Shown: positions 7,064 to 14,835 of the stretch, piece by piece
How the letters are laid out: the number at the start of each line of letters is the position of its first letter
Position numbering within the stretch: the first letter of the stretch is position 1
Source: Eimeria necatrix
Taxonomy: Eukaryota > Apicomplexa > Conoidasida > Eucoccidiorida > Eimeriidae
Direction of reading: 5' to 3'
Assembly: GCF_000499385.1 (NCBI RefSeq)
Contig: NW_013654620.1
Span: forward strand, 2,501-17,335
DNA length: 14,835 bases
Notes under the pieces: model-generated
The model's input: the letters and a program-made list of their open reading frames with translations, nothing else
What the model was told of the DNA's origin: nothing
Database searches by the model: none
Program-made: the position numbers and the translations under genes

Positions 7064-7283
7064 TTATCCGCGAAAAACGCGCTCCAGGAGGTACCACAGC
7101 ATGACTGCAACAAACAGGTAGATGGGCACATACCAAATGTCTTTGTAGCTGCTGCTGCTGCTGCTGCTGCTGCTCTTCTTTTCCAGCTGCTGCCGCAGCA
7201 ATTCGTTTTCCTTCGTCAAGTCTTCTTTGTGTCTTTCCATTGCCAAAGTGTACTCCACCAGCTGGTCGTACTGCTGCCGCAGG

Positions 7284-7318
<35 letters not shown>

Positions 7319-7400
7319 GCTGCTGCTGCTGCTGCTGCTGGGCGCGCCGCCGCCGCCCGCGGGCGCCTCCGCGCGCCCCGCCGCGTCCCCCGCAGCAGCC

Positions 7401-7432
<32 letters not shown>

Positions 7433-7905
7433 GTCTGCTGCTGCTGCTGCTGCGCGCTTGAAGCTCACGCTCAGCCGCGTCTCCTCCAGCTGCTGCTTCG
7501 GCAGCTCCAGCCAATAATTCCGCGGCAAAGCTTCTCCAGAAGCAGCAGCAGTTGCTTGAATTAAAAAGCGATCTGCTGCTGCTTTCGGAGGCTCTTCTGT
7601 CGGCGCCTGCAGCACTATCTGCACTGACCGGCTCTCCCCCTGAGGCACAGCTCCTGCAGCGGGAAACTCAGTGTTTGGCTTGCTGCTGCAACTGCAATTA
7701 ATTAATTTAATTAATTAAATAATTGATTAATTAAATTAATTAATTATTATTTATTTAAATTAATTAAATTAAATTAATTAATTAATTGCAGACAGACGCA
7801 GCAGCAGAAGCAGCCGCTGCAGGGAAGTGCGTGCAGCCTCCCCAGCAGCAGCAGCAGCAGCAGCAGCTGCTGCTGCTGCTGCTGCTGCCGCACGCCCTCC
7901 GCTGC

Positions 7906-7943
<38 letters not shown>

Positions 7944-8111
7944 ACCTGTGGAGGGCCTGACGAGGTAGCTTTTGGGGGCTGTGGTTTTGATTTTGTAGGC
8001 CACGAAAGGATGCGAAGAAACATTTTTTAAAGTTATTTGCACAATTGAACTTGTGAATAAAGCAAAGGGAATTTCGAGCACCTTTTCGGGGTGCACTTCC
8101 AGCAGCGGCAT
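7064..8111 (-). CDS. VAP: VAP family protein (VAMP-associated protein; MSP domain, ER tail anchor)
   Basis: VAPs sit in the ER membrane and bind FFAT motifs of lipid-transfer and tethering proteins at contact sites. Two exons, 8111-7946 and 7653-7064, join in phase and give 251 residues, close to the ~245-250 of animal VAPs. The donor is ACAG|GTCAGC at 7945 and the acceptor GCTGCAG|GAG before 7653; the split Gly completes RPSTG-AVPQGES. Residues 1-122 are the MSP domain with the family signature KIKTTAPKSYLVRPS around 40-54, then VQIVLQ, DRFLIQ and YWLELP. Residues 123-178 are an Ala/Ser/Gly linker from CAG-type repeats. A coiled coil spans about 179-215 (LRQQYDQLVEYTLAMERHKE...), Ser9 lies at 216-224, and a membrane anchor at about 229-245 (WYVPIYLFVAVMLWYLL) is followed by ERVFRG. 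ATG at 8111 fits the normal MSP start and directly abuts a 14-bp palindrome. The frame is open upstream to 8222 but encodes only repeats. Confidence 0.95.
7654..7945 (-). other. VAP intron with CAG tract at its 5' end
   Basis: A 292-bp GT-AG intron. A (CAG)n run begins immediately after the donor dinucleotide, then come more CAG/CTG, an AT-only palindrome (7692-7791) and a short pyrimidine stretch (GAGTTTCCCGCTGCAG) before the acceptor. Other CAG acceptors upstream (TTGCAG repeated) would join out of frame. This one restores the MSP sequence. Confidence 0.85.
7692..7791. repeat. AT-only imperfect palindrome with CTGCA ends
   Basis: The left arm CTGCAATTAATTAATT (7692-7707) is matched by AATTAATTAATTGCAG (7776-7791). 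The interior is also made of self-complementary TTAA units. It sits inside the VAP intron. Confidence 0.8.
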
Positions 8112-8125
8112 GGTGTACGTACACC
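8112..8125. promoter_or_regulatory. GGTGTACGTACACC perfect palindrome abutting the VAP start codon, site 7
   Basis: A perfect 14-bp palindrome whose last base touches the A of the VAP ATG. This position suggests a core-promoter, transcription-start or 5'-UTR element. The binding factor is unknown. Confidence 0.6.
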
Positions 8126-8130
8126 TGGAC

Positions 8131-8131
<1 letters not shown>

Positions 8132-8173
<42 letters not shown>
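8132..8173. repeat. Pure (CAG)14 tract upstream of VAP
   Basis: It lies 20 bp upstream of the VAP ATG, beyond the palindrome. On the VAP sense strand it is CTG. Confidence 0.9.
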
Positions 8174-8175
<2 letters not shown>

Positions 8176-8218
8176 GCAGCACCCGCAGCAGAAGTGTGCA
8201 CGCAGCAGCAAACGCCCT

Positions 8219-8535
8219 TCAAATGGCCCTGACGATTGGTGCAGCAGCAAATCCAAAGAAAAATAAACTCCTCGCAGCGCAGAGGCCCCGTGAACGGCGG
8301 CTCTGCTGCTGCTGCTGCTGCTGCTGCGTGCGGCTGCTGCTGCTGCTGCTGCTGCGCTGCTGCTGCTGCACAGACCGAGCCACAAACTCGCTTTCTGCTG
8401 CTTCCAACTCCTTTTTGCTGCTAACTGAAATTGGACTTCTCAAGTCAAGAAAGTTTTCAGCGCCAGAAAAGAAAAGAGACAGCAGCAACCCCGGGAGCTG
8501 CAGCAGCTGCTGCTGCCAGCAGCGTGAGGGCTGGG

Positions 8536-9309: not shown

Positions 9310-9347
9310 TTTATGTATATATTTAGTTTATTTATTTGTTTATTTGT

Positions 9348-9386
<39 letters not shown>

Positions 9387-9468
9387 TTTTGAAGTTTAAG
9401 ATAATATATTTTGCATTTATAAATGCATCTTTGGATTGTTTTGGCTTCGACAAAAAGGAGCAAATCGG

Positions 9469-9482
9469 GGTGTACATACACT
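9469..9482. promoter_or_regulatory. Palindromic motif family, site 11 (GGTGTACATACACT)
   Basis: One mismatch from consensus. It lies in copy 1 of the 590-bp duplication. Confidence 0.45.
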
Positions 9483-9506
9483 CGAAAATAAAAAAGCAAA
9501 AAACTC

Positions 9507-9899
9507 TTAAGACCAGTTCTGCTCTGCAGCAGCAAAGGGGGCCCCCCGCTGCTGCTGGGGGCCCCCCAAGGCAGCAGGGGCCCCTGCGGCTTGCTGCTGC
9601 AGCAACGCATGCAGCAGCAGCAAATCCATTGCTGCCAACGGCTGCAGCAGGGGGCCCCCTCCGTCCCATTTCGGCTTCACAGAGGGTACTATCCTTCCTT
9701 GGGGGCCCCCAGTAGGGGGGCCCCTGTCTTGGGGGGCCCCCCTTGGGGGCCCCCTGTCTTGGGGGGCCCCCTGTCTTGGGGGGCCCCCTTGGGGGGGCCC
9801 CCCTTTGGGGGCCCCCCTGTGGGCCTGCATGTATTGAATAGCTGCCCATGCAATCATTGCAGCATTATCGTTGCACAGAGAAGCAGCAGGAACTACAAG
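9507..9899 (-). pseudogene. Duplicated 3'-terminal TsaD coding segment (orphan copy)
   Basis: The minus-strand frame repeats the C-terminal end of the neighbouring gene from VVPAASLCNDNAAMIAW through the GGPP-rich insert and VPSVKPKWDGG to a stop at 9507. It lacks everything upstream and has no visible 3' splice site at its break. It could at most act as an alternative terminal exon or 3' UTR, and is most simply a pseudo-exon left by the tandem duplication. Confidence 0.75.
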
Positions 9900-9937
9900 T
9901 TTATGTATATATTTAGTTTATTTATTTGTTTATTTGT

Positions 9938-9976
<39 letters not shown>

Positions 9977-10489
9977 TTTTGAAGTTTAAGATAATATATT
10001 TTGCATTTATAAATGCATCTTTGGATTGTTTTGGCTTCGACAAAAAGGAGCAAATCGGGGTGTACATACACTCGAAAATAAAAAAGCAAAAAACTCTTAA
10101 GACCAGTTCTGCTCTGCAGCAGCAAAGGGGGCCCCCCGCTGCTGCTGGGGGCCCCCCAAGGGTCGTCCCCGGGGACGCGCTTGCTGCTGCAGCAACGCAT
10201 GCAGCAGCAGCAAATCCATTGCTGCCAACGGCTGCAGCAGGGGGCCCCCTCCGTCCCATTTCGGCTTCACAGAGGGTACTATCCTTCCTTGGGGGCCCCC
10301 AGTAGGGGGGCCCCTGTCTTGGGGGGCCCCCCTTGGGGGCCCCCTGTCTTGGGGGGCCCCCTGTCTTGGGGGGCCCCCTTGGGGGGGCCCCCCTTTGGGG
10401 GCCCCCCTGTGGGCCTGCATGTATTGAATAGCTGCCCATGCAATCATTGCAGCATTATCGTTGCACAGAGAAGCAGCAGGAACTACAAG
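9900..10489. repeat. 590-bp tandem direct duplication, copy 2
   Basis: Second copy, contiguous with the body of the TsaD gene. The only difference from copy 1 is 10162-10178, where every one of 17 consecutive bases is the complement of the matching base at 9572-9588. Confidence 0.95.
10059..10072. promoter_or_regulatory. Palindromic motif family, site 12 (GGTGTACATACACT)
   Basis: Exact duplicate of site 11, 590 bp away, carried by the tandem duplication. It lies just beyond the TsaD stop codon. Confidence 0.45.
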
Positions 10490-10501
10490 ACGCTGCACAC
10501 C

Positions 10502-10581
<80 letters not shown>

Positions 10582-10687
10582 AAGAGCCGCAGTAGCACCA
10601 GAACGCTGGGAGAAACTGGAAGAGAGGATTGGCTCCAGGCTGGCCGAAGGGAGCAGTCCCCAGGCTGCTGCTGCTGCTGCTGCCAAC

Positions 10688-10721
<34 letters not shown>

Positions 10722-10803
10722 AGCCACTGCGACTGTCCCGGCAGCAGCAAATCAAACCGCCTGCATTCACGCGTAGTGGTGCCCGTGTGGTCCCTGCGAT
10801 CCC

Positions 10804-10848
<45 letters not shown>

Positions 10849-11043
10849 GCGCCCGTGAGGGTACAGCAGCAGCAGCAGCAGCAGCCAAAAGAGCTGCAGG
10901 TATGCAGAGGGGCCCCTCAGCAGCAACGGGGGCCCCCCCAGCAGTTGTGCTGCAGCAAAAGGAGACAAAAGAAGAAACAGGAATGCGAAATGCCAAATAG
11001 TCGGAGACAGAAAAACGGTCAATTAGCGCTCGCAGGGCCTCTC

Positions 11044-11099
<56 letters not shown>

Positions 11100-11269
11100 G
11101 GTGGGCCTGAAAGGATGAGGAGGGGCCGCCTCTGGACGAGCTTCGCGAGGCGCTTCTTGAGGGCAGCAAACTCGCGCTGCTGCTGCTGTTGCTGCTGCTG
11201 GCTGTCCGCGCGCTGCTGCAGCAGCTGCAGCACTTGCTGCTGCAGTTCCCGATTACGAGCAACTCCTGG

Positions 11270-11309
<40 letters not shown>

Positions 11310-11588
11310 CTCTGCAAAGGTCAGTGTAGCAGCGTGTTTAACGTCTGCGAAGCAGCCAGCAACTACCACGAATCGTGCAGCAGCAACGGCAGCAGCAGCA
11401 ACTGCTGCAGCAGCAACAGCAACTGCTGCAGCAGCAGCAGCAGCTGCTGCAGTTGCAGCAGGTGATTCGAGCGCTGCCTGGCTGCTAATAGTTGCAGAGT
11501 TGCGCTGCAGGCCCACACACGGTGCCAGCATCAGCAGCAGCAGCCACGGAAGCAGCAGCAGCAGCAGAAAGAGCAGCAGCAGCAGCAA

Positions 11589-11624
<36 letters not shown>

Positions 11625-12282
11625 TCACCGCCCACTAGGGCGAGGGTTTTAATCTCTGGTATAAATTCAGTCAGCCAAAGGGCTTGCGAAAGGCGGCGGG
11701 ACACGGGGTAGAAAAGGCCTGAGCAGCAGCAGCACAAGTAGCTAGCTAGCTAGCTAGCTAGCTAGCTAGCCAGTCAGTTGGCTAGCTAGCTAGTCAGTTA
11801 GCTAGCTGGTTAGTTAACTGGACTTTTAGCTAGCCAGTTAGATAGCTAGCCAGCTCGCCAGCCAGCTAGCTGGCTAGCTAACTAGCTAGCCAGAGAGCTA
11901 GCCAACTAGCTAGCCAGAGAGCTAGCCAACTAGCCAGCCAGGTAGCTAGCTAGCTAGCTAGCTAGCTAGCCAGCTAGCTAGCCAACTAGCTGGCGAGCTA
12001 GATAGCTCCCCAGCTAGCCAGGCAGCTGGCTAGCCAGCTACCTAGATAGCTAGATAGCTAGCTAGCTAGAGAGCTAGCTAGCTAACTAGCCAGCTAGCTA
12101 GCTAGCTAGCTAGCCAGCTAGCTAGCTAGCTGGCCGAAGCTACTTACAGTCTTGAATGTATTTGGCAAGGGCCCTCTGAGTGGAAAGAGATGGGGGGCCC
12201 CCGGGGGCCCCCTGAGACTTCAAAAGGCGACTGAGGTGGGCCTTTAGGCCTGAGAAGCTGCAGCAAACCGCAGACGCAGCAA

Positions 12283-12991: not shown

Positions 12992-13165
12992 GAAATAAAA
13001 AGAAATTAAAAAAATAAATAAATAAAAAGAAATTAAAAAAATAAAAAAAAAGAATTACCTGAAGTCCAGACTTCGAGTCTGGTGAGAAGGAGGGGCTTTT
13101 GGCAGCAGCAGCAAATTGTCTGCTGCAGCAGAAGCAGCAAGAGCCTCCAGATACGCGCCACCACT

Positions 13166-13221
<56 letters not shown>

Positions 13222-13324
13222 GTTGCTGCTGGCGTTGCTGCTGCTGCTGCTGCTGGTGCAGTTGCTGCTCCTGGCGCTGCGGGTGCTGGTGCTGCAGCCG
13301 TTGCGTTTGCTGCTGCTGCTGCAC

Positions 13325-13381
<57 letters not shown>

Positions 13382-14108
13382 AGCAGCAAGGGCCCGCAGC
13401 TGCCTCGCAGCTTTGTCCAGGGCCTCCCCAAGGGCATCATCTTGGGTCTCCCCGAGGGTCACCAGGCGGAAAGGAAGGGGGGCCCCCGGCTCGGGGGGCC
13501 CCCCCTCTGGGGGCCCCTCTGGGGGCCCCTCTGGGGTCCCCTCTGGGGGCCCCCCCTCTGGGGGCCCCTCTGGGGGCCCCTCTGGGGTCTCCTCAGGGGG
13601 CCCCTCAGGGGGCCCCTCTGGGGGCCCCTCTGGGGGCCCCTCGGGGGGGCCCCCCTCAGCGAAGGGGGCCCCCCAGTACCCAGGGGGCCCCCCAGCGCTG
13701 CCCCGGGGGCCCCCGGGGCCCCTGGGGGCCCCCACCTGGCAAAAGTGCTGCTGCGACCTTTGCTGCGCCTCCAGCCAAACCCTTGGGGGGGCCCCCCGGG
13801 GGCCCCCGGGGGCACGGGGGCCCCCTGGGGGCCCCCCAGGAGGGGGGCCCCCGGGGGGCCCCCCAGCCAGGGGGCCCCCAGAGGGGGCCCCCTCAGCAGC
13901 AGCAGGGGCCCTAAGGGGCCCCCCGAGGGGCAGCAGCTCTTTAGACAAAAGAAAAGAGAATTGAGAATGGCCTCCAGACAGCAGCAGCAGCAGCAGCGGC
14001 TCCGTGGGAAGCACTTTTGCTGCTGCAGCAGCAGCAGCAGCAGCTGCTGCTGCTGCTGCTGTTCCTGCCTCTGCCGCCTCGGAATCTTCAAGTGCTGCTG
14101 CAGTTGCC

Positions 14109-14141
<33 letters not shown>

Positions 14142-14473
14142 GTACAACTGCTCTCCATAGAGGCCCCCTGGCTGGTGGGGGCCCCCTCTTCCCTAGGGGC
14201 CCCCGGGGCCCCCAGAAGCCCCCCGCGGCCCCCCAAAGGCCTCCCGGGGGCCCCCTTGGGGGCCCCCAAGGGGGCCCCCTTGGGGGCCCCCAGGGGGGCC
14301 CCCCGGGGGGCCCCCAGGGGGGCCCCCCTTGGCCTGTTTGGCAGCAAGTAAAGAGAGGCCCCCGGAAGACTTGTGCTGAAGGCGTGGCCCTGGAGGTGGT
14401 GGACCCCCACAAGGGTGGGGGGCCCCCTGGCAGCAAGAATGCGTTTTTGCACAGCTGCCATTGCTGCTGCCTT

Positions 14474-14537
<64 letters not shown>

Positions 14538-14835
14538 AGCAGGCGGCGAAAGGCGCAGCGTAAATGCCACGAGGGGTCTATGCCTAGGGGCGTTTTGCCG
14601 GGGCCCGGGGGCCCCCCGGGGGGCCCCTGGGGGCCCCCCTGGTGGAACTTCTCTGGGGCAAATGGGGGCCCCTGTGGGGCCCCCAGGGCCTCCCCAAGGA
14701 CTTCATCATAAGCAGCAGAAAGCAGCAAATTAAAAGGCACTAGAGGGTCTTTGCTGCACTTTGAAATGTCCCCTCTGGGGGCCCCCAGGGGGGGGCCCCC
14801 CAGGGGGGGGCCCCCCAGGGGGGGGGCCCCCAGGG
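10097..14835 (-). CDS. tsaD: TsaD/Qri7-type tRNA N6-adenosine threonylcarbamoyltransferase, 5' partial
   Basis: This enzyme transfers threonylcarbamoyl from TC-AMP to A37 of ANN-decoding tRNAs. Exons 14835-13059 (open at the window edge), 12257-12148, 11718-11629 and 11265-10097 join in phase. Donors are GTAATT, GTAAGT and GTGAGT; acceptors end CTGCAG, GCTCAG and TTCCAG. Motifs in order: LVGVHHLQGHAFST with the metal-binding His-x3-His (14384-14401), SGGHSQF (13967-13978), LGETQDDALGEALDKAARQL (13397-13456), SLDF|SFSGLK across intron 1, LALVGG|GVARNREL across intron 3, LCNDNAAMIAW with the metal Asp (10454-10465), and a C-terminal VKPKWD (10253-10270). HH-x-x-GH, SGGH and C-x-DN are the bacterial/organellar type rather than cytosolic Kae1, so it is probably the apicoplast or mitochondrial enzyme. 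E. coli TsaD has 337 residues; this model exceeds 1,040 without its N-terminus, the excess being Gln, Ala, Ser and GGPP-type repeats. Some repeat segments in the first and last exons could be unrecognised introns. Any targeting peptide lies outside the window. Confidence 0.9.
10503..10580. repeat. Long CTG tract (26 triplets, one TTG interruption)
   Basis: In the TsaD reading frame on the minus strand it encodes a Ser run directly before the exon part containing LVVPAASLCNDN. Confidence 0.9.
11045..11098. repeat. Pure (CTG)18 tract in TsaD exon 4
   Basis: Fifty-four bases, read as poly-Gln in the TsaD frame. Similar CTG runs at 10664-10721 and 10805-10848 encode Gln or Ala/Ser in the same frame. 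Confidence 0.9.
11266..11628 (-). other. TsaD intron 3
   Basis: The donor GTGAGT follows GTGGGCG and the acceptor is TTGCTTCCAG. Splicing joins G|GA to give LVGGVARNREL, the expected GGVAxN motif. The intron begins with CTG repeats immediately after the donor and holds several more CTG/GCA runs. Confidence 0.85.
11719..12147 (-). other. TsaD intron 2
   Basis: Donor GTAAGT and acceptor GCTGCTGCTCAG. Joining gives QDC-LFYPVSRRLSQALW. It is filled almost entirely by a GCTA microsatellite. Confidence 0.85.
11739..12132. repeat. Degenerate (GCTA)n microsatellite, about 394 bp
   Basis: GCTA units with variants such as CCAG, GTTA, GAGA and GATA. The unit core GCTAGC is palindromic, so both strands look alike. 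It lies between exons 2 and 3 of TsaD, ending 20 bp from the 3' splice site on one side and about 15 bp from the donor on the other. Confidence 0.9.
12337..12357 (+). other. GGGGT x3 run, possible G-quadruplex
   Basis: GGTGGGGTGGGGTGGGGTG gives four G-runs separated by single T bases, directly beside the CTG tract in intron 1 of TsaD. Confidence 0.5.
12400..13050. repeat. AAATAAAAG / GAAATAAAA purine tract
   Basis: About 650 bp of almost pure A/G with scattered T, with an exact ~9-bp period (AAAAGAAAT) near 12910-12990. On the TsaD sense strand it is a giant polypyrimidine stretch in intron 1. Phe-rich minus-strand open frames here are artefacts. Confidence 0.8.
13169..13381. repeat. CTG array: (CTG)17, interrupted middle, (CTG)18
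   Basis: Pure runs at 13169-13219 and 13328-13381 flank a varied Gln-coding middle. In the TsaD frame the whole block is a Gln-rich insertion of about 70 residues, between DKAARQL and GGAYLEALA, which are adjacent in ordinary family members. Confidence 0.9.
13478..13922. repeat. GGGGGCCCCC palindrome array inside TsaD coding sequence
   Basis: Mostly 12-bp units of the type CTCTGGGGGCCC. In the TsaD frame they read EGPP/GGPP repeats, inserted between the SGGH motif and the LGETQDD motif. Related arrays lie at 14158-14331, 14419-14429 and 14597-14835. Confidence 0.9.
14477..14536. repeat. Pure (CTG)20 tract in TsaD exon 1
   Basis: Read as poly-Gln in the TsaD frame, between the segment TPLGIDPSWHLRCAFRRLL and AAVQKRILAARGPPTLVGVHH. 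Confidence 0.9.

Follow-up and report, generated by a model that had tools for sequence, protein, structure and literature searches.

How can a short block in one of two otherwise identical tandem copies read as the complement of its counterpart in the same direction, without reversal? The question is raised by a 14,835-base stretch of DNA (the window) from Eimeria necatrix, a chicken parasite whose genome is a draft. The window corresponds letter for letter to C980:2501-17335 and is the end part of a 17,335-base contig of the E. necatrix assembly. The assembly sequence that was searched comprised 44.0 Mb in 1148 contigs, with some stretches consisting of N. According to a review, the E. necatrix Houghton assembly is a short-read draft (Illumina HiSeq 2000) of 55.0 Mb in 3707 contigs, so that the whole-assembly counts reported here apply to the searched part. 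The features under study are:

9310..9899, plus strand: copy 1 of the 590-base tandem repeat, sharing 573 of 590 bases with copy 2
9572..9588, plus strand: natural form of the block, CAGCAGGGGCCCCTGCG, with its 14-base core at 31 places in 44.0 Mb
9900..10489, plus strand: copy 2 of the 590-base tandem repeat, whose minus strand carries the end of open frame 10097-11317
10162..10178, plus strand: unreversed-complement block, GTCGTCCCCGGGGACGC, with a 14-base core that is unique in 44.0 Mb

The two copies were compared letter by letter. All 17 mismatches among the 590 positions form one contiguous run (9572-9588 versus 10162-10178), within which CAGCAGGGGCCCCTGCG and GTCGTCCCCGGGGACGC are same-direction complements at 17/17 positions, exactly as the preliminary description had stated. 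The identity ends precisely at both borders of the repeat with 0 bases of extension on either side, and the remaining positions are without divergence (573/573), as expected of a false tandem duplication; a recent real duplication would equally give undiverged 590-base copies. The chance that all 17 differing bases fit one given swap is (1/3)^17 = 7.7e-9, or 2.3e-8 for any of the three swaps, which bears out the earlier judgement that 17 independent substitutions are an inadequate explanation. The same holds for a simple inversion, since 9 mismatches remain after the best single inversion, compared with 3 after the best single reversal and 0 once 9572-9588 is complemented. The core of the block, GCAGGGGCCCCTGC, is a palindrome of 14 bases, and therefore few positions in the window block can tell complementation from in-place reversal. 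Both forms of the block are able to fold into a hairpin.

Copy 2 had been proposed to be the altered one, and the assembly counts agree with this, given that its core CGTCCCCGGGGACG occurs at 1 place (the window) and the copy-1 core at 31. When the block was sought elsewhere in the window on either strand the longest exact match was 8 bases, and the copy-2 core was not found elsewhere in the 44.0 Mb. The single occurrence of the copy-2 core thus leaves a template switch without a donor in the sequence searched. The expectation of further complement blocks at GGGGCCCC palindromes was not borne out, as GTCCCCGGGGAC (2 occurrences versus 324 for its reversal in 44.0 Mb) was present in the window and in C95 only, and the C95 site (L046) is ordinary-looking sequence.

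If complementation without reversal had occurred more than once, its product should be visible in other repeats. AAACCCT repeats are abundant in the assembly and their unreversed complement, TTTGGGA, is expected to be rare. The word TTTGGGATTTGGGA, an unreversed complement of the telomere-like repeat, gave 41 matches versus 64,822 for the natural form, and these lay in 13 contigs of the 44.0 Mb; a looser search for the telomere word, with 1 mismatch allowed, gave 31 matches, all of them in contigs examined here. All 13 contigs were fetched and read. A strict test required 14 or more bases of exact complement directly adjoining 12 or more bases of identity on the same repeat diagonal. It was positive at 9 of the 13 telomere-word loci, 2 of these 9 having identity on both flanks, and it also flagged the window itself. 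The two control swaps (transition; A-C/G-T) each gave 0/13 at the telomere-word loci and 0 in every other group. The operation thus recurs at unrelated places of the same assembly, and the preliminary description's suggestion that an assembly error may be the cause gains from the blocks of the same kind in nine other contigs. Contigs that carry such blocks are C194, C463, C588, C627, C660, C688, C958, C975 and C1117. Outside this group the test was negative at 7 GTC loci (0/7), 5 loci with the copy-1 core (0/5) and 8 loci matching part of the 590-base unit (0/8). Among 20 longer stretches (165,558 readable bases, chosen mostly around earlier matches and not at random) it flagged 1/20, which was the window's own block. 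With no further strict-test block in these stretches or in the GTC, core and repeat-related loci, the error is rare.

Some of the complement matches were long, with 136 bases at 96.3% in L052 (C588), 129 at 96.9% in L049 (C194), 91 at 96.7% in L048, 86 at 98.8% in L059 and 61 at 98.4% in L050. By eye, the complemented sequence extended to about 150 bases in L049 and about 200 bases in L052, and block lengths across loci ranged from under 20 to about 200 bases. In L057 (C958) a natural 21-base unit, TAGCAGCAAGGGTTTAGGGTT, changes to ATCGTCGTTCCCAAATCCCAA and back again, with 66 bases in register, and in L055 the complemented bases lying outside the telomere-like repeat number 28/28. Locus L056 (C688) has a complement block in each of two successive tandem copies (213-261 and 350-396), the first being by eye longer by one base at either end, which looks as though the two had been made independently. 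The view that a hairpin is needed is not supported, given that the complement blocks at other loci are situated in telomere-like minisatellites and comprise long non-palindromic sequence.

The telomere word was at most 600 bases from a contig end in 9/9 flagged loci and interior in 4/4 unflagged loci (Fisher p = 0.0014, four loci being few); positions no more than 760 bases from an end make up about 4% of the assembly. In contrast to the nine flagged loci, the window block is interior, at a distance of 4.66 kb from the contig end, and two blocks found by looser methods, in L048 and L051, are also interior, at 5.7 and 6.3 kb from an end. Natural telomere-like repeat is found at a contig end too (C4, among the first three contigs with matches) and its presence at some ends could yield part of the enrichment, so the enrichment at ends is supportive and not proof.

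Looser scans were also run. A loose self-complement scan of the 20 stretches gave complement matches in 12/20, transition matches in 3/20 and A-C/G-T matches in 2/20; the top matches in 11/12 were G/C-rich runs with GGGGCCCC arrays, which match their own complement, and these sample matches were therefore not counted. In L025 the same scan found telomere-like matches at 85.7%. Over L039-L059 the numbers were 13/21 for the complement (11/13 telomere-word loci plus L040 and L044), 0/21 for the transition and 1/21 for the A-C/G-T swap, this single match being L045, an AGCT tandem. At the telomere-word loci, L053 and L054 gave nothing and the match in L047 was weak (85% over 40 bases); the strict test did flag L053, through a 14-base run. 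A Viterbi reading along the diagonals, made with no control swaps, agreed with the strict-test loci except for L053 and added L048 and L051. Its weaker candidates L025, L039, L040, L043, L044 and L047, likewise with no control swaps, were not counted.

Runs of (GTC)5 in a CAG context were examined as possible complement blocks (18 matches at 7 places versus 293,299 natural; strict test 0/7). Both AGC and its complement TCG are serine codons and in-frame serine tracts could mimic junctions, and for this reason these runs were set aside. The word GTCGTCGACGTCG gave 3 matches versus 10,131 natural in the 44.0 Mb, two at the start of C1063 and one in C144 (L060), the latter being rejected as its letters contain no CAG run. 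At the C1063 start (L045 1-32, C1063:1-32) GTC/GAC complements by eye to CAG/CTG in phase with the following sequence, which is suggestive of another block, possibly cut by the contig end.

The coding context was considered as a guide to which form of the block is correct. The minus-strand frame 10097-11317 has 46% identity to an E. maxima protein over 355 aligned columns and 42% over 403 to a second relative. It contains CNDNAAMIAWA, which we take to be typical of the TsaD/Kae1 C-terminus, and a Pfam search of this frame gave no match. In the minus-strand frame 13055-14740 Pfam gives a weak match to TsaD that stays below the cut-off. The two frames probably belong to a single TsaD/Kae1 (tRNA threonylcarbamoyladenosine) gene that contains large poly-Q/A/S insertions and whose 3' part lies within copy 2 of the 590-base repeat and is repeated by copy 1. 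The block encodes residues 380-386 of frame 10097-11317, which fall outside the part aligned to E. maxima and, in the second alignment, just past the end of the conserved stretch. Given this position beyond the conserved aligned parts, coding conservation does not show which form is right. The window also carries, at 7064-8222 on the minus strand, a gene for a protein with a major sperm protein (VAP-like) domain and CAG repeats (frame 7782-8222, Pfam PF00635; minus-strand frame 7064-7648, 99% identity to E. necatrix protein P0001), and at 11739-12131 a long TAGC tandem array with period 4, about 98 copies and 73% matches.

Polymerases copy antiparallel and do not produce an unreversed complement, yet same-direction complements beyond the reach of any polymerase are present in the window and at other loci. 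The recurrence in one assembly of an operation that DNA copying cannot perform makes an error by assembly software almost certain, and the pattern of the sequences indicates that the window block and its kin almost surely arose in the draft assembly through complementing without reversing. In such a scenario an automatic post-assembly step, for example gap closing or contig-end extension, would find the right bases and convert their strand wrongly, either by complementing without reversing or by reversing a reverse complement without complementing it, the resulting letters being identical. In the window, 17 bases would have been filled in at a GGGGCCCC palindrome, and the in-register blocks of varied length at repeats and contig ends would be wrongly converted fills or extensions. 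The GGGGCCCC palindrome of the window block sits inside an array of such palindromes, and short reads do poorly in arrays of this kind. A classic route to complement-only output is the Perl function reverse(), which in list context does not reverse a string, and one idea is that the pipeline fault had this source; the paper on the assembly pipeline is reportedly Reid et al. 2014.

Short-read assemblers usually collapse perfect tandem copies that exceed the read length, and we see about an even chance that the undiverged 590-base copy represents two contig ends placed side by side. A second perfect tandem pair, with a unit of 601 bases rich in GGGGCCCC palindromes, was observed at L020 8746-9947 (C31:188746-189947), and AAACCCT telomere-like repeats begin within a few bases after it. 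Both pairs could be juxtaposed contig ends or real recent duplications.

Several other explanations can be weighed against a strand-handling error. That a template switch or microinversion at a hairpin replaced the block, which the preliminary description had entertained, would fit its location at a palindrome able to fold, and human-chimpanzee microinversions of 17-33 bases with flanking inverted repeats are known (PMC8755829). Such events yield a reverse complement (PMC7954356), whereas the best inversion here leaves the 9 mismatches noted above, the window has no match beyond 8 bases, the core has no second site in the 44.0 Mb, and same-direction complement matches of 86-136 bases occur elsewhere in non-palindromic sequence; a mutation of this type is therefore exceedingly improbable. 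An in-place reversal of the 14-base palindromic core combined with three nearby substitutions is attractive in so far as reversal equals complementation on a palindrome, with only 3 mismatches remaining. It requires four events versus one for complementation, and DNA can no more be physically reversed without being complemented than complemented without being reversed. Since blocks at other loci are same-direction complements of their neighbouring copy, and long non-palindromic sequence in L049, L052, L055 and L059 fits same-direction complementation, this account is also unnecessary and we give it practically no credence.

The fault might instead be confined to the copy of the assembly analysed and be absent from the public record. 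A protein search with frame 10097-11317 gave 2 proteins, neither of them named E. necatrix, so none confirms the block. Against this, the contig of origin of the public E. necatrix protein P0001 is also 17,335 bases long, and a fault in one copy would not be expected to give blocks of under 20 to about 200 bases scattered at contig ends, which renders this possibility very unlikely. One could finally suppose that the DNA of E. necatrix really carries unreversed complements, generated in register in tandem repeats by a novel process. The blocks do recur in register within tandem repeats, and in L056 two consecutive copies have one block each, their ends differing by eye by one base. However, we know of no enzyme that copies in parallel, and nine blocks lie at contig ends of a short-read draft, so that we assign next to no probability to such a process.

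A strand-handling error of this type would mean that a recurrent error class appears to be present in a published parasite genome. Spurious variants, disrupted reading frames and, in repeats, false differences between species would result, and checks based on length would miss the error, since the block does not change in length. Reads are not needed for its detection, which amounts to testing whether complementation improves the fit of a repeat copy to its neighbour, with the other base swaps as controls, and assemblies from the same pipeline could be screened in this way.

Among known systems, microinversions and short template switches resemble the window block in that a short run of substitutions lies in hairpin-prone sequence while the rest of the copy is identical. 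According to PMC7954356 and PMC8755829 they produce the reverse complement of a nearby template; the window block is unreversed, does not correspond to the reverse complement of any local template, and no donor was found. With respect to draft-assembly errors, no description of complemented but unreversed blocks was found in the open-access literature searched, in which no paper appeared to describe this error class or faults in the E. necatrix assembly. PMC9516828 and PMC8848313 give general descriptions of false duplications and wrong gap fills, and the present case shares with draft-assembly errors its undiverged tandem copies and the occurrence of faults in repeats and, at the nine flagged loci, near contig ends.
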